Assembly: GCA_947644305.1 (NCBI GenBank)
Contig: CANRYS010000006.1
Span: 1 to 64,000 of the forward strand
Reading direction: 5' to 3'
Source: an uncultured Roseburia sp.
Lineage (GTDB): Bacteria; Bacillota; Clostridia; Lachnospirales; Lachnospiraceae
DNA: 64,000 nucleotides
Under the pieces are notes generated by a model. That model ran no database searches and was not told the origin of the DNA. It was given only the letters and a program-made list of their open reading frames with translations. This document shows, in pieces, positions 5,988-28,657 of the stretch (its first letter is position 1; each line of letters starts with the position of its first letter). Position numbers and translations under genes: made by a program.

Positions 5988-7022
5988 TTAATTTGAGCCC
6001 AGCTTCAATCCCGGAACTGCGTTCAGATCCCAGCCATCACGCCTTCCATTGATAAATTCATAATAACCTGCCGCCCCAATCATGGCAGCGTTATCCGTAC
6101 AAAACACAGGTTCAGGATAGTACAATTGATACTTTCTATCCGCACACTGTTCCTCCATCTTTCGGCGCAGCCCTTTATTGCACGCCACACCGCCTGCCAT
6201 TGCCACCGTATGAATTCCATAATTCTCTGCTGCCAGCATCGTATGGGCCACCAACACTTCTGTCACCGCTTCCTGGAAAGAGGCAGCGATGTCTGCCTGA
6301 GAATACTCTAACCCTTTCATTTTACAACCATTGATATAATTTAACACGGCCGACTTTACTCCGCTGAAACTAAAATCATATGGCGCCCCTTCCACGGACG
6401 CACGGGGAAATTGGATCGCTTTCGGGTCCCCCTGCACGGATAAATCATCTATCTTCGGCCCCCCAGGATAGCCAAGACCGATAGAACGCGCCACCTTATC
6501 AAATGCCTCTCCCGCAGCATCGTCCCGCGTTCTTCCGATAATCTCATATGTTCCATACTCCTTTACAATGACAAGATGACTGTGCCCCCCGGATACCACC
6601 AGACATAAAAACGGCGGTTCCAATTCTTTGTGGCAGATGTAATTGGCAGAAATATGCCCTTCTATATGGTGTACTCCGATCAGTGGTTTGCCCGCTGCAT
6701 AGCTGATCGCCTTTGCCGTTCCCACTCCGACCAGAAGGGCTCCCACTAACCCCGGACCATAGGTCACACAAATCCCATCCACGTCATGAATGGTTAATTC
6801 CGCTTCCCTCAGCGCCTGGTCGATCACCTGGTTGATATTTTCAATATGCTTTCTGGAAGCGATCTCTGGCACAACGCCACCGTATAATTTATGCAGATCG
6901 ATCTGGGAGGCGATCACATTTGATAAAACCTCCCTTCCATTTAACACCACTGCTGCCGCGGTCTCATCACAGGAGCTCTCCACGGCCAGCAGCCGTATTT
7001 CTCTATAATCCTTATTTTCCAT
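5988..7022 (-). CDS. tsaD: tRNA N6-adenosine threonylcarbamoyltransferase TsaD
   Basis: Transfers the threonylcarbamoyl group to A37 of ANN-decoding tRNAs, working with TsaB and TsaE, whose genes lie about 2.2 kb upstream on the same strand. The ASKHA ATPase fold is evident: N-terminal [14 protein letters not shown], metal-binding [15 protein letters not shown] and the C-terminal [10 protein letters not shown]. Length 344 aa is normal. I start at ATG 7022 because GGAG lies six bases upstream. Earlier candidates are ATG 7034, which abuts its purine run, and TTG 7061, which overlaps the preceding stop. Confidence 0.95.
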
Positions 7023-7057
7023 CTCATTCTCCATCCCCTTTATTTTAACTCCGGGGC

Positions 7058-7705
7058 TCAACTTTCGCTTTTTTCCTGATTCGGGTTCACATTCTTTTTA
7101 AAGGCAAGGATTTTCCAACGTTTCTCCTCTTTTACAAGGATATAGTCCTGAAACACTTTGGAATAATTGCCATTCTCGCTCATAAAAAAGCCGATCTGAA
7201 TATAAGCACATTTTTTTCCGTCATAATCCAGATATTTTAAGGAACTCTCTTTATCCACTGTATAATTGGCTATCTTTCTTTTCTTTTTCTGGAACTCCTC
7301 TACCTCTGCCCTAAAATTTTCTTTCTGCTCCTCAAAGGTATTTTGATCTAACAATGACTTGCTGTATAACATTCTGAGCTGATTAAGAAGTTTATCAAAT
7401 GTTTCATCATCAAGTCCCTCGGTATTGTAAATATACTGGTTGATCCGCGCAAAAAATTTTACAACTTCTGTGGGTGTCTCTGGATAACCCATCTCCAGAT
7501 CTTTCTCTGTCAGTTTTTGCAACTCTGTGGCAGACGGTATATTTCCACTTTCTGCTTTGTCTGCCTTCTTATGCTGATAAAATACAAAGATCACTCCGAT
7601 CACAAGAATACACGTCACAAAAGCGAATACCGTCATATTCTTTGCCATCTTCTGTGCCGGGCTGCGCCTATTATTACCAGCGGGTACATTATTTCTTCTC
7701 TGCAT
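7058..7705 (-). CDS. Conserved membrane-anchored protein of unknown function
   Basis: 215 aa. A basic N-terminus (about 1-22) is followed by one transmembrane helix (about 25-45, [17 protein letters not shown]) and an extracytoplasmic domain of about 165 residues with helical and then beta-rich parts ([20 protein letters not shown] and a closing [10 protein letters not shown]). The late part resembles the NTF2-like or stress-domain style seen in lachnospiraceal proteins, but I do not recognise the family. ATG 7705 is chosen because GGAGG lies just upstream; an in-frame start 21 bases earlier lacks a site. It sits between rnz and tsaD, probably in the same operon. Confidence 0.75.
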
Positions 7706-7725
7706 AGCGAATCCTCCTTTCTCCA

Positions 7726-8640
7726 TCAGGAATCTGCTTCAAATATAAACTCCCGGAACATCCGGTCTTTGCCAGGTATGGTGTTGGCGAATATTTTCCT
7801 AACGTCATCCATATATACATCCGGCTTTATGAGTGACGGACTATAATGAGTAAGCCACAGTTCTGGCACCCCGGCTTTCGCTGCCAGCTCCGCCGCCTCG
7901 TAAAAAGTCATATGCTTTTTCTCTCTGGCACTTGCCGTCTTTTCCTTCTCCCCATACATGCCTTCACAGATAAGCAGATCCGATCCAGTTGCATGTTCTA
8001 CGATCCGCGCCGTAGGACGGCTGTCGGTACAATACGTTATCTTGATCCCTTTACGTTCTGGCCCCAGGACCATTTCAGAGGTATAAATTTTTCCCTCCAA
8101 TTCCACCTGGTCATTTTTCTGCAGAGGGCTCCATGCCTTCATGGGCACATGATTCCGCTTCGCTTTCTCCACATCAAACTTACCGCTTCGTTTGATCTCC
8201 AGGCTATATCCATAGCATACCACATTATGGTTCACCTTGAAAGCCCGAATATGATATCCAGCAAAATAAAATTCCTGCTCTTCCCCCTCTATTTCCACAA
8301 ATCGAAGTTCAAAAGGCAATCCCTGGGCAATCACAAGCAGGGACTGAACAATTCGTTTCAGTCCCTTCGGTCCTATGATTGTCAATGGATTGCTTCGTTC
8401 TGCATTTCCCATGGACAGCAAAAGCCCCGGCAAACCGCTGATATGATCTCCGTGAAAATGAGTGATACAGATCACGTCGATCGGATGAAAACTCCATCCC
8501 TGCTCCCGGATACTCACCTGTGTTCCCTCACCGCAGTCGATCAACAGACTACTTCCATTGTATCTCGCCATAAGCGCAGTGAGTGCCCGGCGCGGAAGAG
8601 GCATCATTCCGCCAGTTCCAAGTAAACATATGTCCAGCAT
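7726..8640 (-). CDS. rnz: Ribonuclease Z
   Basis: Metallo-beta-lactamase-fold endonuclease that removes tRNA 3' trailers. It opens MLDICLLGTGGMMPLP and carries the zinc motif THFHGDH, then further metal ligands in CEGMYG and LTHYSPS. The 304-aa length from ATG 8640 matches the family. The open frame runs 86 codons further upstream, but that extension has no RNase Z similarity and no supporting start, so it is excluded. GGAGG lies 13 bases before the start, a long spacing. It is especially relevant here because the tRNA genes in this window do not encode CCA. Confidence 0.93.
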   Translation of the reverse strand: MLDICLLGTGGMMPLPRRALTALMARYNGSSLLIDCGEGTQVSIREQGWSFHPIDVICITHFHGDHISGLPGLLLSMGNAERSNPLTIIGPKGLKRIVQSLLVIAQGLPFELRFVEIEGEEQEFYFAGYHIRAFKVNHNVVCYGYSLEIKRSGKFDVEKAKRNHVPMKAWSPLQKNDQVELEGKIYTSEMVLGPERKGIKITYCTDSRPTARIVEHATGSDLLICEGMYGEKEKTASAREKKHMTFYEAAELAAKAGVPELWLTHYSPSLIKPDVYMDDVRKIFANTIPGKDRMFREFIFEADS

Positions 8641-8818: not shown

Positions 8819-9061
8819 TCAGTCCATCGCTGCTCTCTTTTCCTGATTTTCCACCGGAATGAAAAAGCTTTCCGTAAATTCATCATAACATGATTCACAG
8901 AGGCAGAACTGGTGAATCTGTAGATCCTTTCCCGAAAAATATCCCCATTCCTTGGTCACAAAAAGTCCATCTTCGTGTAATATACCATTTTTGACCATTA
9001 ATTCTTTTCCGCATTTATTGCACATAATTTTTTCTTTTTTCATATTTTCACCATCTTTCAA
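8819..9061 (-). CDS. Small zinc-ribbon-like protein, unknown function
   Basis: 80 aa with two Cys pairs, CNKCGKEL near the start and CLCESCYDEF near the end, spaced as a probable zinc-binding site. The middle (HEDGLFVTKEWGYFSGKDLQIH) is typical of small proteins found beside housekeeping genes in Clostridia. The start is decided by the ribosome binding site: GGGGGAG lies nine bases before TTG 9061, whereas ATG 9043 has none at useful distance. A -10-like TATAAT at 9127-9132 follows a direct repeat GTAGAAAAT on the minus strand, so this may begin the rnz-tsaD transcript. Function not inferred. Confidence 0.7.
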   Translation of the reverse strand: MKDGENMKKEKIMCNKCGKELMVKNGILHEDGLFVTKEWGYFSGKDLQIHQFCLCESCYDEFTESFFIPVENQEKRAAMD

Positions 9062-9235
9062 AATACTTTTCTCCCCCTGTATGTTAAACTCCCGTACCCT
9101 CAATACGGAGTGTATTCATACATAAGATTATAACGGATTTTCTACCAATTTTCTACTTGTAAAAATATGAAAAAATTCTATTTTTAGGATGTAATACCAG
9201 GAACAAAAAAGTCAAATTTCCCTTCATACATACAT

Positions 9236-21823: not shown

Positions 21824-22858
21824 CTATTGTACTTTATCGCAGAGCTTTTCTTGTATCTCACACAACATATCCGTCTCCAGCACAACATGGAGCCATCTCT
21901 CCAAAACATCCATATCTTTCTGCTGCTGAATCCTTTTAATCATTTCATCAGGTATGTTGCCCTTGGGAGCCAATACAAGAAAGATCATTTCCTGCAGTGT
22001 GTCTACCCTTCCCTGCCCAATTCCTTCTTTACGTCCTTCTTCACGGCCTTCTTCACGTCCCTCTTCACGGCCTTCTTGGCGCCCTTCTTGGCGACCTTCT
22101 TCAAAGCCCTTTTTGCGACCTTCCTCTATACCGATCCTTTTTCCTAGTTCTCTTCCTTCTGCTAAACCCTCTTCTCTGGCTTCCTTTCGCCACATTTTTT
22201 CAAGTTCCCAAGATTTCATATAGCGAACACCTACTTCCTTTCTACATTTGATCCTTGTGACATAACGATGTAATTCTTTCAATTCCTCTGACACAGCATT
22301 TTCTTCTTTGCTTTCTGCAAGATAATTCAAAAGTTGTGTCAGTTGTTTATTCCCGCCCATGGTACCCTTCGTATAGAGAAACAACGAAACAGCCCCATCT
22401 TCATATGGAGTGTCTGGCTCCTCAATGATCTTGTTTTTTATTGTATAACACATTCGATCTTTCCCAAAAGGATCTTTTGTCAGAATAAATATTGTCCACA
22501 TATCCGGCAGCTTATCATACTCTTCACCCGCTTCCAGTAGTCTTCCGTCCAACAATGCCCGATAGTATCGATTCCGCTTTGGCAGCAATTTTTTATCTGT
22601 ATATTTGTCTGGTTCAAAATCATATAGACAACTTCCACTCTCGTCCACATACAAATCCATGCGGATCCCATGACGCATCGTATCATTGCCCTGAATCATA
22701 TTTTGTGGATATATTTGAATATCCTTCACATCTCTCTGACAAATTGCCTTAATCAACAATCGACAAAACCATTCCCCCTTCTCTCCGGAGACTGCTTCAA
22801 AAAACAGAAAGTCATCCATTAAATTTAGTTCCTCAAGTTCTCTTTTTACCATTTTCAT
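21824..22858 (-). CDS. Rpn-family PD-(D/E)XK nuclease-like protein
   Basis: 344 aa, typical of the Rpn/PD-(D/E)XK 'recombination-promoting nuclease or putative transposase' family. The N-terminal domain (about 1-200) shows the opening NLMDDFLFFEAV, then GIRMDLYVDE with the conserved Asp, YDFEPDKY where most members have an E-x-Q site, and the KRNRYYRALLDG helix. A charged helical C-terminal part contains an EGRxEGR-like repeat (about 247-280) encoded by 12-bp tandem repeats. The protein is presumably a DNA nuclease; mobile-element association is usual. GGGGGAAG precedes the ATG. Confidence 0.82.
   Translation of the reverse strand: MKMVKRELEELNLMDDFLFFEAVSGEKGEWFCRLLIKAICQRDVKDIQIYPQNMIQGNDTMRHGIRMDLYVDESGSCLYDFEPDKYTDKKLLPKRNRYYRALLDGRLLEAGEEYDKLPDMWTIFILTKDPFGKDRMCYTIKNKIIEEPDTPYEDGAVSLFLYTKGTMGGNKQLTQLLNYLAESKEENAVSEELKELHRYVTRIKCRKEVGVRYMKSWELEKMWRKEAREEGLAEGRELGKRIGIEEGRKKGFEEGRQEGRQEGREEGREEGREEGRKEGIGQGRVDTLQEMIFLVLAPKGNIPDEMIKRIQQQKDMDVLERWLHVVLETDMLCEIQEKLCDKVQ
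22024..22119 (-). repeat. 12-bp tandem repeats within the Rpn-like gene
   Basis: About eight imperfect 12-base units of the type CTTCTTCACGGC encode (E/Q)EGR on the minus strand. Such in-frame repeats can change copy number by slippage, changing the length of a charged helix without frameshift. Confidence 0.85.
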
Positions 22859-23267
22859 TCATCTTCCCCCTTATTATAATTCTTTTTTAGTTTCTTGTAA
22901 AGTCTTTTTAACCTTTAAGTTGAAATTCATTTGGATTTTTCTGCCCAGAAATGTCTCGCGACAATTGCAGTTGTATTAGAAATCACTTGAATTAAAAATT
23001 TTGATGTAAAAATTATAATATAACTTTTCTTATTAGTCAATATATTTTTTATATTTATAAATGAACAAATAATTCGTAGCAAAATAGTAGCATACAAAAT
23101 AGCTTAGCGGCACCGCAAACTAGATCCATAAATTCAAATTAGCAGACCTCGCTTTATCTCCGTGTTCTATAGGTATTGAATAGCGATACATGTTTTGATA
23201 CATAAATAGTAAAGATGCCTTTCATATAAAAGGTTCTTATTTAAAAAGTAGAGGAGATGATCAAATT
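22859..23267. other. AT-rich intergenic region between the Rpn-like gene and the integrase
   Basis: 409 bases with no credible gene on either strand. It holds the divergent upstream regions of both genes, long AT tracts around 22990-23070, and a short CATATAAAAGG segment before the integrase. No tRNA fragment, attachment-site duplication or excisionase gene was seen. Confidence 0.6.
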
Positions 23268-24362
23268 ATGCCAGCATACAAGGACAAAAAAAATGGAACT
23301 TGGTACTGCAAATTTTATTACAAGGACTGGAGTGGAGTGTTAAAACAAAAGTGGAAAAGGGGCTTCGATACAAAAAAGGAAGCGCAAGCATATGAAAGAA
23401 ACTTTTTACAGAGACAAACATTCAGACAGGACATTTTATTTGAAAATCTATATTATGTATACATGGAGGAAATGTCCTTGCGCCTTAAGCATTCTTCTAT
23501 CATAACAAAGAGAAATATCTGTGAGACAAAGATACTTCCTTATTTTGCGAAAAAGCCGGTCAATGAAATCCGAGCCGCTGATATTAGGAAATGGCAAAAC
23601 TGTCTACTAGAGTCTGAACACAATTATTCAAAGACATATTTAAAGACCATTAACAACCAATTATCTGCCATAATTAATTTTGCCCGCAAATATTACAATC
23701 TGGAATCAAACCCTTGCGAACAGGCAGGGAGTATCGGCACAAGCCGGGCAGAAGGCATGCAGTGCTGGACACTGGAGGAATTCTTAGCTTTCCGAGAAGG
23801 GATCATGGACAAAGCAAATTCTCTAATCTGTTTCGATGTGCTTTATTGGACTGGGATCAGAGAGGGGGAACTGCTGGCGCTTTCTGAACAAGATATCAAT
23901 TTTGAGAAAAAGGAGCTTTTCATCAATAAATCCTACCAGCGTCTCGAGAGAAAGGATATCATTACTCCACCCAAGACCAGAAAAAGTAGAAGAAAAATTC
24001 CTATTCCAGATTTTTTATGTCAAGAACTACAAGAGTATCGAAAAGGACCAAACTATGATGCGGGAAACGAACGATTTTTCCCTTTTAGCAAAGCTTTTTT
24101 AAATTACGAGATGCGGCGAGGATGTAAAAATACTGGTGTAAAAAAAATTCGTGTCCACGATATCCGTCATTCTCATGTATCTCTTCTGATTGATCAGGGA
24201 TTCGATGCCCTTGTGATTGCAGAACGGGTGGGCCATGAAAATGTATCAACAACTTTGAATACGTATGCTCATCTATTTCCAAACAAGCAGATGGCTTTAA
24301 TTTCTTCGTTGGAAAATCTGGGAATGAGACAACAGAATTTGACAAAAATAGTTGCATTTTAA
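23268..24362 (+). CDS. Tyrosine-type site-specific integrase
   Basis: 364-aa phage/ICE-type recombinase. An N-terminal arm-binding AP2-like domain (KDKKNGTWYCKFYYKDWSG) is followed by a SAM-like core-binding domain (about 65-165) and the catalytic domain. The catalytic residues are all visible: Arg in TGIREGELLAL, His-x-x-Arg in HDIRHSHV, His in GHENVS and Tyr in NTYAHLF. AGAGGAGATGATCAAATT precedes the ATG. No excisionase, relaxase, phage or cargo gene is next to it, so it appears to be a remnant or the driver of a very small element. Confidence 0.92.
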   Translation: MPAYKDKKNGTWYCKFYYKDWSGVLKQKWKRGFDTKKEAQAYERNFLQRQTFRQDILFENLYYVYMEEMSLRLKHSSIITKRNICETKILPYFAKKPVNEIRAADIRKWQNCLLESEHNYSKTYLKTINNQLSAIINFARKYYNLESNPCEQAGSIGTSRAEGMQCWTLEEFLAFREGIMDKANSLICFDVLYWTGIREGELLALSEQDINFEKKELFINKSYQRLERKDIITPPKTRKSRRKIPIPDFLCQELQEYRKGPNYDAGNERFFPFSKAFLNYEMRRGCKNTGVKKIRVHDIRHSHVSLLIDQGFDALVIAERVGHENVSTTLNTYAHLFPNKQMALISSLENLGMRQQNLTKIVAF

Positions 24363-24422
24363 TTGCAATATTACTTAAAGAAAGGAAAAACCCCGATTTT
24401 ACAGGGATTTACAAAATGGTTT

Positions 24423-24620
24423 ATTATTCTACCACATTAATAAAAAAAACGCAACTGTAAAATGGGTATGCTTGTCAATTTTTATCTTTTTTGTATATAC
24501 TCATAAATTATTTAATTTTATTCATACATATTTAGCCGGACGATGCCCGTTTTAACTCTTGACTCCCTAATGCTGCCCCTATGCATCCCATGGAGTTCCT
24601 TACTAATGTGGTAGAATAAT
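24423..24620. repeat. 17-bp inverted repeat pair flanking a 164-bp spacer
   Basis: ATTATTCTACCACATTA at 24423-24439 is exactly inverted at 24604-24620. In addition, ACGCAACTG stands as a direct repeat next to each arm (near 24449 and 24622). The position directly after an integrase suggests recombinase-binding arms or the end of a small element; a regulatory role is also possible. Confidence 0.7.
24472..24501 (+). promoter_or_regulatory. Putative promoter of the Ig-like surface protein gene
   Basis: TTGTCA, 18-base spacer, TATACT. It lies between the arms of the 17-bp inverted repeat, so inversion of that segment would turn the promoter around. Confidence 0.5.
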
Positions 24621-24670
24621 CACGCAACTGACACATGTTTTTATTCAGTAAAAAAATAAGGAGGAAGAAA

Positions 24671-27600
24671 ATGAGTAAATGGATTCAAAAATTAACGCGG
24701 ACATCCAAGCGTAGCATGGCGTGTGCCATGGTCGCCGCTCTGGCATTGTCCTCACTTGCCCAGGCGCCCTCTTCAGAGGCAGCAGGCAAAAAGAAACCTA
24801 CACTAAATGTGAAAAAAAAGACATTGTACTGGAATAAGTCAGGCAACAAAAATTATACCTTGAAGCTGAAAAAAAACAAGGTAAAAACCATTGTGACTAC
24901 CACGTGGAAGACGAGTAAAAAAAGCGTGGTTGCTCTTAGCAGAAAAAAAGACACTTCGGTCAGATTGACTGCAAAAAAGAAAGGGACAGCTACCATCACG
25001 GCTACTGTCAAATACGTTCCCGTGGGAAAATGGGCAATAAAGACGGCAAAACTCACCTGCAAGGTGACTTCCAAAGGAACTGCCCCTGCCCAAACACCAC
25101 CAGCTAAAACAGAGCCGGCTCAGACACCACTAATTATTTATACAACAATGCCAGCGCCCCCTTCCCAACCGGTGGTCACTGAAGAGCCTACTGATACACC
25201 AGAACCGGAGGATACATCTAAGCCAGATACCACCTCTTCTCCTAATGAGACAGCCGATCCAGATAAGTCACAAGAACCGACTTTTACACCGAATACATCC
25301 GATGACTCTACTGTAACAGAAGTCGTTTTGAGCACATCGGAAGCACTACTCGGCATGGAAAAGGGTAGAAATACCATCACTCTGACAGCAACTGCAAAAG
25401 ACAAGGACGGTAAACCATTGGAAAACCAGGCCGTTACCTGGACTTCGGATGATGAAAGCGTCGCTGCCGTAAAGGAAGGAATCGTAACCGCAGCCGGAAG
25501 TGGTACAGCTCATATTATAGCTACCGTAAACAATGTAACTTCAAAACCATGTACCATCATAGTAGATGCTGAAAAGCCGATTATTAAAGAAGCGGAACTA
25601 AGTGACGGCAAGACATTTTTTGTAGCTTTCAGTGAGCCAGTCACAGGAACACCATCCATAAACGTGAAAACGGAGGATAATACAACTATAAAATGTGAAT
25701 CTCTGGTACTGTCAGAGGATGGAAAAAGCCTGATCATAGCCTGCCAGGAAACACTAAGCGCAGGCAGCTACGAGCTCACAATCAATGGCCTGGAGGATCT
25801 GGCTGGCAACAAAATGGCAGAAGACAGCCACATATCTGTACAAAAAGTTTCAAGTGTTCCAACAGCTATTGTTTGCAAGACAGATCAGGTTCCGGCAGGT
25901 CAGACTTCTTTCGATGTTTATTTTTCCATTGTTGACCAGTATGGCGAAGAGTATGATACCCTGGGAGTAATGTCGGAAGGCGTATTTACCGCATCTGCCC
26001 AGACAGAAACCGGCATGCCTTTTAAAGCCCAGGTAAATCAGCAGGAAGGATATGTTAGGGTTTTTGGTTCTGCCAGCGCCTTTACAGAGGGTAGAAAAAT
26101 CAAATTAACCTTAACTTATTCCGTATCGGACGAAACAGTCGTTGAGGAAAATATGACAATTACTCTCGTGGACGCAACGGACAAAGGAAAAGCAGTGAAA
26201 ATTGCCGGGCTCAATGCTACAAGTAAAACGATGGATAAGATCTCCTCTACCGACGATGAAGACAAACCGGTATTCCAGCTTAGCGGCACGGAAAAAGACA
26301 ATGTATTCACACTATCTTCCAAACTTCTTGATAAGTTTGGTTATGAAGCAGAGCCGTCAGATGTTATTTATATGATCAAGGACGAAAGCATACTTGCCTT
26401 CTCTGGCACAGATGAAGCAGCTTCTGATGGAATTTATACATCTAGTCAGCCAGTTACTGTGCGAGCACTCAAAGGCGGTACAACAACAATCACCGCATAT
26501 CTGGCTTCGGATGACTCCGAGTTCTACAACATCACGGTGACAATAAAATCTACGAGTCTTCAGGAAATCACGGTGGCGGATCTCGGTGAGGGAACAAATG
26601 GAAAGATGAGTGAAGCAAAAATCACACTGACCCCTGCTGGAACCGGACTTACAAAGGATGACTTAAAGTACCGGGTGACAGAAGGCGACGAGCGCCTTAA
26701 GAAACTTGTCTTTGTTCAAGAAATCGACGGAATTTATATTAATATAACGGCTTTTCCTGACAGCAGAGATGACCCCATTCGTTTTGTTGTGTACAGTGAC
26801 GGAGCTGAGTCGAAAGAGATTTCTTATACATCCACACCGTCCCTTTCCGCAGCAAAAATCGACATTGAAGACTTTAAAGAAAACACTGTTACGGCAGGCA
26901 GCACCGCCACCACCACCTACCAGATCCTAAACCGATACGACGAGGACATCACCAATCGGACAGGAAAACAGCCTGAATGCGGAATCTCGGTTCCAAATGT
27001 TGTAAAATCAGCAAGTACAGGTATTGGCGATTCTGCCGGAACACTCACGATCGAGACACTAAATCCGGGAACATCAGAAGTCACTCTGTCGCTGCCAGGG
27101 GATTCCTCTGTAAACGCAAAAGTAAATGTGACAGTTTTGGAAAAAGCATACGTTCAAGCGATCCAATTTGGGACAGCAACGATGGATGGATTAAAATTAA
27201 CGGATAAAAGCGTTCTTTTTATCCCAGTTCAAGCATATGATCAGTACAAAAATAAGTATAATACTTTTACAAGACAAACTATCAAGGATGAAGATTTGAT
27301 AATTACTGTAAATGGTAAAGAGATAGATTCTTCACCACTTTTGGCTGACTACTACGAAACTACTTCTAGTACAACTGCTATCCAATCTACAGATACGACC
27401 ACGAAAATCGGTGCTATCGGCCTCAAATGGCGCAATACTACTATGCCAGCGGCGGGAGAAGTTTTGAAGATAAGTTTTCAGAGCAAACGTACCGATCTGG
27501 ACACGGAACCATACCATCTTCCAGTAAAAGCGGCATCCTCAGTTAGCAGACTGGAGTTTCATTATGATGTCCAGGCAGCACTTCCAGGTGCAGCAGTCAG

Positions 27601-28657
27601 CAATACATTGAAATTAATTGACCAGTATGAAGAAGAAGCCTCTATGCCAGACGGACAAAATTTGTATGTTTCTGTTCTGGATCAAGACGGAAATATAATT
27701 TCCTCTAACCCTATAGTTGCTTCTCCATCTGCCATTGTAACTGCTACTGACCCAATTACTGTTAGTATTTCCAATAATAATACCGTCAATCTTACTGTTA
27801 ATAACGTAACCGACAACAAGGAATATACGATTCAGGTTTATTTAGGAGATAGTCATACTAAGTATGATACTGCAACTGTCAAGGAATCTTATAAACTGCT
27901 AGTAGACTCAGCAGATAATCTGCTGGAAAAGATAGAAATTTCTAATATTGCCGATAAATCGGTTTTAAGTACCACCACCCCATTCCCTCTGGACGGCTAT
28001 TATGTAAACCTTAGAGCTTCTGGTACAAAGTTAGCTTTTAACTGTAACATGTATACACACTACCAGGGAAAAGACGTAGAAATAGCATGGAAAGACACTG
28101 ATGGTGCTTCAGTATTCAATTCCAATAACTTAATATGGAAGGTAACAACTTCAGAGAAGGTGATAGCAACTATGGATACTATAAATAAAAACACTTTCAC
28201 ACTGACAACTTCTTCTACAACGGCCCCAATCGATGATGTTGCAACAGTTTCCCTAACATATATTTCAGAAGAAAGAAAACTATCTGATGAGCGAATAATT
28301 AAGGTCAGCAATAAGCCCGCTATGCCACAAGGAAAATATCAGATTATTAAAAATGCTGATAATCCTATTGTTAATTACCTTGACAAGAGCAATACGGCAG
28401 AAATTTCAACTCAAACCATCTTTAAGCTCGTTGCAGAAGACCAGTATGGTGATACATACGAGAATACCTCTCTCTTTACAGTAATTTCATCCAAAGGGCT
28501 CTTCACCATCGATACAACTTCATTTCCAACTGTAAATAGCTCCTTTCACGTTTCTCCTGCTACCTCAAAGCCAGGTGAAGTGGATATCATCAAAGTTTAT
28601 GTGACCAAAGATGACTATTATGAGTTTACAGTGAAATATGTGGAATCAGCAAGCTAA
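24671..28657 (+). CDS. Large secreted multi-domain Ig-like surface protein
   Basis: 1328 aa. The signal peptide covers about 1-36 (ACAMVAALALSSLAQA). A lysine-rich BIG-type domain (about 38-130) precedes a Pro/Thr/Glu/Ser linker (about 133-215). A BIG2 domain (about 220-305, VTWTSDDESVAAV) and a Big_5/SbsA-like domain (about 308-390, with LEDLAGNKMAE) follow. The remaining 930 residues form repeated beta-sandwich units carrying a DQYG or DQYE-type motif: VDQYGEEYD, LDKFGYEAE, YDQYKNKYN, IDQYEEEAS and EDQYGDTYE. No LPXTG or S-layer motif is seen. ATG 24671 follows GGAGG by seven bases; the frame opens 12 codons earlier. Probable adhesin or glycan-binding surface fibre; function unproven. Confidence 0.85.
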   Translation: MSKWIQKLTRTSKRSMACAMVAALALSSLAQAPSSEAAGKKKPTLNVKKKTLYWNKSGNKNYTLKLKKNKVKTIVTTTWKTSKKSVVALSRKKDTSVRLTAKKKGTATITATVKYVPVGKWAIKTAKLTCKVTSKGTAPAQTPPAKTEPAQTPLIIYTTMPAPPSQPVVTEEPTDTPEPEDTSKPDTTSSPNETADPDKSQEPTFTPNTSDDSTVTEVVLSTSEALLGMEKGRNTITLTATAKDKDGKPLENQAVTWTSDDESVAAVKEGIVTAAGSGTAHIIATVNNVTSKPCTIIVDAEKPIIKEAELSDGKTFFVAFSEPVTGTPSINVKTEDNTTIKCESLVLSEDGKSLIIACQETLSAGSYELTINGLEDLAGNKMAEDSHISVQKVSSVPTAIVCKTDQVPAGQTSFDVYFSIVDQYGEEYDTLGVMSEGVFTASAQTETGMPFKAQVNQQEGYVRVFGSASAFTEGRKIKLTLTYSVSDETVVEENMTITLVDATDKGKAVKIAGLNATSKTMDKISSTDDEDKPVFQLSGTEKDNVFTLSSKLLDKFGYEAEPSDVIYMIKDESILAFSGTDEAASDGIYTSSQPVTVRALKGGTTTITAYLASDDSEFYNITVTIKSTSLQEITVADLGEGTNGKMSEAKITLTPAGTGLTKDDLKYRVTEGDERLKKLVFVQEIDGIYINITAFPDSRDDPIRFVVYSDGAESKEISYTSTPSLSAAKIDIEDFKENTVTAGSTATTTYQILNRYDEDITNRTGKQPECGISVPNVVKSASTGIGDSAGTLTIETLNPGTSEVTLSLPGDSSVNAKVNVTVLEKAYVQAIQFGTATMDGLKLTDKSVLFIPVQAYDQYKNKYNTFTRQTIKDEDLIITVNGKEIDSSPLLADYYETTSSTTAIQSTDTTTKIGAIGLKWRNTTMPAAGEVLKISFQSKRTDLDTEPYHLPVKAASSVSRLEFHYDVQAALPGAAVSNTLKLIDQYEEEASMPDGQNLYVSVLDQDGNIISSNPIVASPSAIVTATDPITVSISNNNTVNLTVNNVTDNKEYTIQVYLGDSHTKYDTATVKESYKLLVDSADNLLEKIEISNIADKSVLSTTTPFPLDGYYVNLRASGTKLAFNCNMYTHYQGKDVEIAWKDTDGASVFNSNNLIWKVTTSEKVIATMDTINKNTFTLTTSSTTAPIDDVATVSLTYISEERKLSDERIIKVSNKPAMPQGKYQIIKNADNPIVNYLDKSNTAEISTQTIFKLVAEDQYGDTYENTSLFTVISSKGLFTIDTTSFPTVNSSFHVSPATSKPGEVDIIKVYVTKDDYYEFTVKYVESAS

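Follow-up and report, generated by a model that had tools for sequence, protein, structure and literature searches.

A conserved mobile-element-type integrase beside inverted repeats and a secreted-protein gene: a candidate invertible switch in Roseburia

The locus described here lies in a 64-kb window, the whole stretch of DNA that was analyzed, on contig C6 of an uncultured Roseburia genome (G000; 3.19 Mb, 37 contigs). It begins with an intact forward-strand gene (positions 23268 to 24362) for a tyrosine integrase of 364 aa, in which arm-binding, SAM-like, and catalytic domains (Arm-DNA-bind_4, Phage_int_SAM_3, and Phage_integrase) all scored above the Pfam cut-offs. The translation contains TGIREGE, HDIRHSH, GHEN, and NTYAHL, which we take to be the catalytic motifs, and structure 6emy, listed as an Int protein and presumably the Int of Tn1549, was among its nearest solved structures. 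A preliminary description of this DNA had recognized a complete tyrosine recombinase without an excisionase, and both parts of that claim were borne out. The ORFs of at least 25 aa overlapping positions 22850 to 23280 were the integrase, a 344-aa Rpn-like gene, and ORFs of 26 to 56 aa, none of them excisionase-like, and in the interval from the integrase to the protein gene downstream no ORF of at least 60 aa begins.

The genes around the integrase are chromosomal, with the Rpn-like gene and purA on one side and a sulfite-reductase-like gene on the other (names partly by reading); no mobile-element genes were seen among its neighbors in the window, and a PADLOC search for defense systems gave no match. 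The Rpn-like gene (21824 to 22858), whose match fell below the NCBIfam cut-off, contains a long EGR/EEG repeat run and is kept beside the locus in two related genomes (G313 and G325).

Downstream of the integrase, a ribosome-binding site (AAGGAGG, 24658 to 24664, forward strand) precedes a forward-strand gene at 24671 to 28657 that encodes a 1,328-aa protein with a signal-peptide-like start and weak matches to bacterial Ig-like domains (Big_1 and Big_2, below the Pfam cut-offs). This product had been called a surface protein. Its size, its ATG at 24671, and its signal-peptide-like start agree with that description, but an LPxTG motif and a C-terminal membrane segment were looked for and neither was seen, and "secreted" is therefore the safer label. 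The gene has dN/dS values of 0.30 to 0.38 in the three pairs computed, and in both G325 and G326 it appears to be divided between two contigs, whose ends in G325 (L130 end, L157 start) resemble insertion-sequence termini. Paralogues occur at seven loci in the same genome, four of which have an enclosing ORF, and none of these four has an upstream repeat scoring at least 12. Among four distant homologues elsewhere (about 32 to 35% identical), one (L159) has a 12-nt upstream pair and three have none.

Between the two genes lie inverted repeats of 21 nt that differ at one position, at 24423 to 24443 (left) and 24600 to 24620 (right), enclosing a 156-bp segment (24444 to 24599). We regard the repeats as candidate core-type sites and the segment as candidate invertible DNA. 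The left repeat starts 60 bases past the integrase stop codon, and the right repeat ends 50 bp before the ATG of the protein gene. The exact 17-bp repeats reported earlier (24423 to 24439 and 24604 to 24620) were found as described and extend to 21 nt at 95% identity. These 17-mers are the longest exact inverted pair with a span of 60 to 500 nt in the 64-kb window, and an exact pair of at least 17 nt arose in 1 of 60 Markov-simulated windows. Within the 620 nt that follow the integrase, the inverted-repeat score is 17 in the window and 18 to 22 in four orthologues, while none of 300 simulations reached 14 (best, 13). Conserved inverted repeats flanking a short segment at this position are beyond chance.

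A 14-nt core pattern matched its own genome exactly at two places only, the two repeats themselves, and allowing one mismatch gave 17 matches versus 12 for a reversed control. Across 39 genomes of the genus there were 19 matches, 10 of which make up five repeat pairs; the other 9 are attributed to chance because the reversed control gave 15. A single exact match in genome G331 (L103) lies inside a thymidylate-kinase-like gene (by reading). Viral contigs contained three exact matches (L132 to L134), none with a partner repeat nearby, and two integrases of at most 36% identity. The second-longest exact inverted repeat in the window (9035 to 9175) has arms of 14 nt and measures 141 nt end to end. 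A further inverted pair near the integrase (24393 to 24404 and 24455 to 24466) was dropped, as by eye it is not kept in G320 or G325.

Counting as orthologues integrases of at least 90% identity, we found the gene in 5 of the 39 genus genomes (G000, G313, G326, G320, and G325; 90 to 100% identical). It is intact in all five species, and dN/dS was 0.053 to 0.086 at dS values of 0.29 to 0.99 in 10 species pairs, values that indicate strong purifying selection on the integrase. All five genomes have the same layout of repeats, spacer, and protein-gene start, and the loss of the repeats from relatives keeping both genes, which the preliminary description had named as an outcome that would refute a switch, was not seen among them. 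We also searched these five genomes for the flipped orientation and found none. All five share one orientation, which leans against a switch; each species is represented by a single assembly.

Left and right arms differ at 2 of 22 positions in G000, at 1 in G320 and in G325, and at none in G313 and G326. The arms are 84 to 98% identical in 7 of 10 species pairs whose spacers are 59 to 66% identical, and between G000 and either G320 or G325 the corresponding values are 84 to 93% for the arms and 60 to 61% for the spacer; the G325 segment is also shorter by about 22 nt. Arm positions altered on both sides together numbered 2 of 22, both in G320, and since 17 of 500 shuffles gave a count as high, these two-sided changes are suggestive. 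In G320 the integrase, repeats, and protein gene occupy another chromosomal place, between other genes: DNA common to the window and the G320 copy begins near 23067, a search of the 20 kb around the G320 locus turned up neither purA nor the Rpn gene, and the sulfite-reductase gene is on a separate contig. A search for an empty site by way of the sulfite-reductase neighbor gave no clean one, the gene order being too rearranged.

The segment between the repeats carries promoter-like signals. The sigma-A-like promoter noted earlier is present as TTGTCA-18-TATACT (or 16-TATATA) at 24472 to 24501 on the forward strand (P1), directed toward the protein gene; the match to consensus is at chance level (7 matches in the region versus 7.4 ± 3.0 expected), and what speaks for it is the invariance of its GTCA and TATA in all five species, much of the surroundings being variable. 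The G320 sequence reads CCGTCA, a poor -35. A second candidate, P2 (TTGCGT-17-TAGAAT with TGG before the -10; 24426 to 24454, reverse strand), spans the left repeat, with its -35 in the segment and its -10 in the repeat. At present it points left, toward a terminator-like hairpin for leftward transcription (CCCTGTAAAATCGGGG followed by TTTTT; 24391 to 24406, reverse strand), which is weak in that one such site was found versus 1.4 expected by chance. After inversion, P2 would face the protein gene and give a leader of about 50 nt, so that a candidate promoter is directed at the gene whichever way the segment lies. A scan of the segment as now oriented yielded no rightward terminator.

Related integrases provided a wider comparison. 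The set comprised 92 distinct sequences, taken from part of the search matches, of which 83 were followed by at least 380 nt of sequence. Downstream inverted-repeat scores were 17 to 22 in the five orthologues, and 2 of 78 less related integrases (<89% identity) reached 14, namely, those of G314 (14) and L041 (15, MITE-like), with L192 next at 13. Because upstream repeats scoring at least 14 occur at five other family integrase loci (L013, L039, L041, L048, and L058), a repeat near an integrase is not telling by itself. A midpoint-rooted tree of 71 integrases places the five orthologues together with those of G314 and G300 (fork, 100/99), set apart from relatives with an att layout of the guaA type. 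The next group consists of G301 with G017, G122, G264, G327, G641, and G745, and in the five of these seven that had enough downstream DNA the repeat score never exceeded 9.

The sister integrase in G314 (66% identical) has its own, different inverted repeat in the matching position after the gene. This pair, TTACTCTATCAC[A/G]ATAAG, measures about 270 nt end to end, and the contig stops some 40 bp later; AAAAAACGCAA adjoins the left arm, as in the window, and the counterpart of P2 reads TTGCGT-17-TGA-TAGAGT (by eye). Upstream of the same integrase (L117, contig C81), an exact 21-bp inverted repeat of 166 bp end to end (6183 to 6348 on the reverse complement) starts right where a HicB-like gene (by reading) has its 3' end, and its reversal would lengthen the HicB-like protein from 137 to 174 aa; possibly this is a second, gene-altering inversion site in G314. 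In G300 (L119, about 6058 to 7900), the integrase is truncated, and the gene after it resembles a large serine recombinase (by reading); apparently one mobile element has inserted in the integrase of another. A search for the remainder of the interrupted integrase gave two weak matches only.

Repeats also occur near other integrases of the family. At L058 (G307), an exact 17-bp inverted repeat, GTTACTATTCACGGCTG, surrounds about 190 bp and lies 245 to 52 bp before a match to an integrase that is a family member at 44% identity. At L038, L039, and L041, from Roseburia and Lachnospiraceae MAGs, ATATAATATACTTACC-type inverted repeats bound elements of about 250 bp, up to three per integrase. These loci were set aside as switches since the repeats look like repeated elements of roughly that length, either MITE-like or structured-RNA elements. 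A 13-nt pair before a secreted-protein gene in G131 (integrase, 56%) was likewise rejected; it spans 60 nt end to end and looks like a hairpin.

We consider it probable that the locus is an invertible regulatory switch worked by a domesticated mobile-element integrase, and not a remnant. This reading is the best supported because the repeats are matched across species, G320 shows two-sided changes, the integrase is under selection, and the unit is found in two chromosomal contexts. The support comes from five closely related species and one distant case (G314), with the two-sided changes from G320 alone. On the other side stand the single orientation of the five assemblies, the chance-level consensus matches of the promoters, and a candidate promoter facing the gene in either orientation. 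We postulate that a tyrosine integrase of the mobile-element type was domesticated as a dedicated invertase, which would bind the two inverted core sites of 21 to 22 bp (24423 to 24443 and 24600 to 24620), aided by arm-type motifs, and invert the 156 to 198 bp between and including them. Because promoter-like signals lie in the segment and only 50 bp separate its outer repeat from the gene, inversion would be expected to alter transcription of the secreted-protein gene, giving ON and OFF cells. The earlier proposal of an invertible promoter is partly supported and stands best as an integrase-operated invertible segment; that a flipped segment would switch the gene by moving its promoter is inferred, and action of the integrase on the repeats, inversion itself, and an effect on expression are likewise predictions.

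Motifs resembling integrase arm-type sites accompany the cores. A paired arm-like direct repeat, GTAGCAAAATAGTAGCA (23076 to 23092, forward strand), precedes the integrase gene, near the point where the DNA common to the window and the G320 copy begins on the left; it is the single match in the window, with 0.03 expected, and it is present in three of the four orthologues, the three whose contigs reach that far, with one changed base in G313. A motif, AGTTGCAT, overlaps the 3' end of the integrase gene (24350 to 24357, forward strand) and is kept in all five species. Two copies of AGTTGCGT are found on the reverse strand. One adjoins the left repeat within the segment (24449 to 24456), with AGTTGCR unchanged in all five species, and one lies beyond the right repeat, toward the protein gene (24622 to 24629), where the other four species are one base off. 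The motif AGTTGCRT, chosen post hoc, has five matches in the window, three of them within 24350 to 24629, against 3.5 expected per 64 kb. The preliminary description had offered arm-type sites as an alternative identity for the repeats. Arm-like motifs are indeed present, but they are additional to the repeats, not in place of them.

If these motifs are the arm-type sites of the integrase, for which they are candidates, the present orientation would, post hoc, give each core one arm-type motif, an arrangement like attL and attR, and the flipped orientation would resemble attP and attB. Inversion would leave the right core with both arms (attP-like) and the left core with none (attB-like). Arm-binding integrases favor the product of the attL/attR type when no excisionase is present. 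We therefore also entertain, as a tentative and rather unlikely elaboration, a directional switch derived from an integration module, in which the integrase alone would drive and hold the present orientation and flipping back would need an excisionase, perhaps supplied by a resident mobile element. Instead of flipping randomly, such a switch would serve as a reporter of, or a response to, the activity of mobile elements, and the single orientation in all five genomes would then be explained as the attL/attR-like state favored by the integrase.

An alternative hypothesis, which we think unlikely, is that the repeats and arm motifs are att pieces of an integrase-gene cassette, left over from its integration and excision or still used for them, with no inversion switch. 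Relatives just outside the group of the five orthologues, G314, and G300 (60 to 65% identical) do carry arrays of AGTAGCA and AGTTGCG arms after the integrase, as in G017, G122, and G327; the G017 integrase and its array adjoin a guaA-like 3' end (name by reading), and the G301 integrase (60%) is followed at its contig end by arms and a core-like TGTGGTAGAATA. The window retains similar arms, its core resembles that of G301 in sequence, and the integrase-repeats-gene trio sits elsewhere on the chromosome in G320. We discarded the idea that mixed orientations account for the G301 contig end, because its core orientation and arms resemble the guaA-type att layout. A single element has its att sites at its two ends, as direct repeats, whereas the cores in the window are an inverted pair 156 bp apart before a gene. 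A remnant would decay, yet the integrase is intact in all five species with dN/dS of 0.05 to 0.09 at dS of up to 1. No other element genes flank the integrase, and the genome holds no further exact 14-nt core, its one-mismatch matches being those compared above with the reversed control.

It is quite unlikely, in our estimation, that the gene is controlled without DNA rearrangement, either by RNA pairing of the repeats or by binding of the integrase or some other regulator to them. That hypothesis accommodates the single orientation in all five genomes; inverted repeats are frequent in clusters of binding sites, and RNA pairing would also yield matched changes in both arms. Of 110 arm cells, 4 are nonidentical, 1 forming a G-U pair and 3 unpaired, and because three of these four do not pair, nothing favors RNA pairing. 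No Rfam match was obtained in 22000 to 25500 at E values of up to 1, and a loop of 156 nt is long for a regulatory hairpin, varies in length (about 22 nt less in G325), and is poorly conserved. Control without rearrangement would also leave the tight linkage to a recombinase unexplained.

Very improbable is inversion in the style of cwpV of Clostridioides difficile, with the promoter outside and the flipped segment making or removing a terminator or leader structure. The geometry (21 nt, 156 bp, and 50 bp) is near that of cwpV, and a promoter-like TTTACA-18-TATTAT starts outside the left repeat, overlaps it, and is unchanged in G313. However, G326 lacks the -35 of this outer match and the versions in G320 and G325 are poorer (by eye), whereas all five species share an invariant inner GTCA...TATA, and the segment as now oriented has no recognizable rightward terminator.

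If the invertible-switch reading is true, cells could turn a large secreted protein on and off by a DNA flip. The unit is compact, comprising a single integrase, a single pair of sites, and a single target gene, and it has been retained in several species, so that testing it should be easy. Should the attL/attR-like layout prove real, we would see in it how an integration module turns into a biased switch, and expression of a rapidly evolving secreted protein would be coupled to the supply of an excisionase. Promoter inversion is familiar from Bacteroidales, and C. difficile has switches based on DNA inversion; to our knowledge, the recombinase behind a given inverton has rarely been identified in gut commensals like the Lachnospiraceae. 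Among the matches listed in a literature search of titles and the starts of abstracts, we found no description of this integrase-repeats-gene unit, which is not proof of absence. The mechanism would be an ordinary one, phase-variable inversion, and the build unusual, a domesticated mobile-element integrase with arm sites; comparative evidence supports this reading well, with inversion as its prediction.

In Escherichia coli, fimS is a promoter-bearing invertible segment beside tyrosine recombinase genes and upstream of surface genes, and the locus described here is similar in having a candidate promoter-bearing segment that adjoins its recombinase gene. FimB and FimE are small and lack an arm-binding domain, unlike the integrase here, which has one. 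In domain architecture this integrase is like those of Tn916/Tn1549-type and guaA-site elements, and its relatives carry the same arm motif arrays; unlike those elements, the locus has no element genes and no excisionase was seen, and unlike att sites at the ends of mobile elements, its two cores are inverted and 156 bp apart. The fimS segment measures 314 bp (PMC9993118). Closer in phylogeny is cwpV/RecV of C. difficile, also in the Clostridia. In that system a pair of imperfect 21-bp repeats is separated by 195 bp and lies 57 bp ahead of the start codon of a gene for a large cell-wall protein, the promoter is outside the segment, inversion is proven, and recV is not near cwpV (PMC2784873). 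The two systems share short imperfect 21-bp repeats, a spacing of about 200 bp, a position about 50 bp before the start of a large envelope-protein gene, and an implicated site-specific recombinase; they differ in that the integrase here is adjacent, of the mobile-element type, and equipped with an arm-binding domain, and in that inversion is known there and predicted here. In a defined gut community, inverton group 139 comprises 33 invertons, 32 of them from Clostridia, and is linked to invertase group 35, a tyrosine-type recombinase/integrase, within 5 kb (PMC11892184). The present locus resembles these invertons in its clostridial host and in having a tyrosine-type integrase within 5 kb; they were detected from reads in both orientations (PMC11892184), whereas the Roseburia segment is seen in one orientation, from assemblies.
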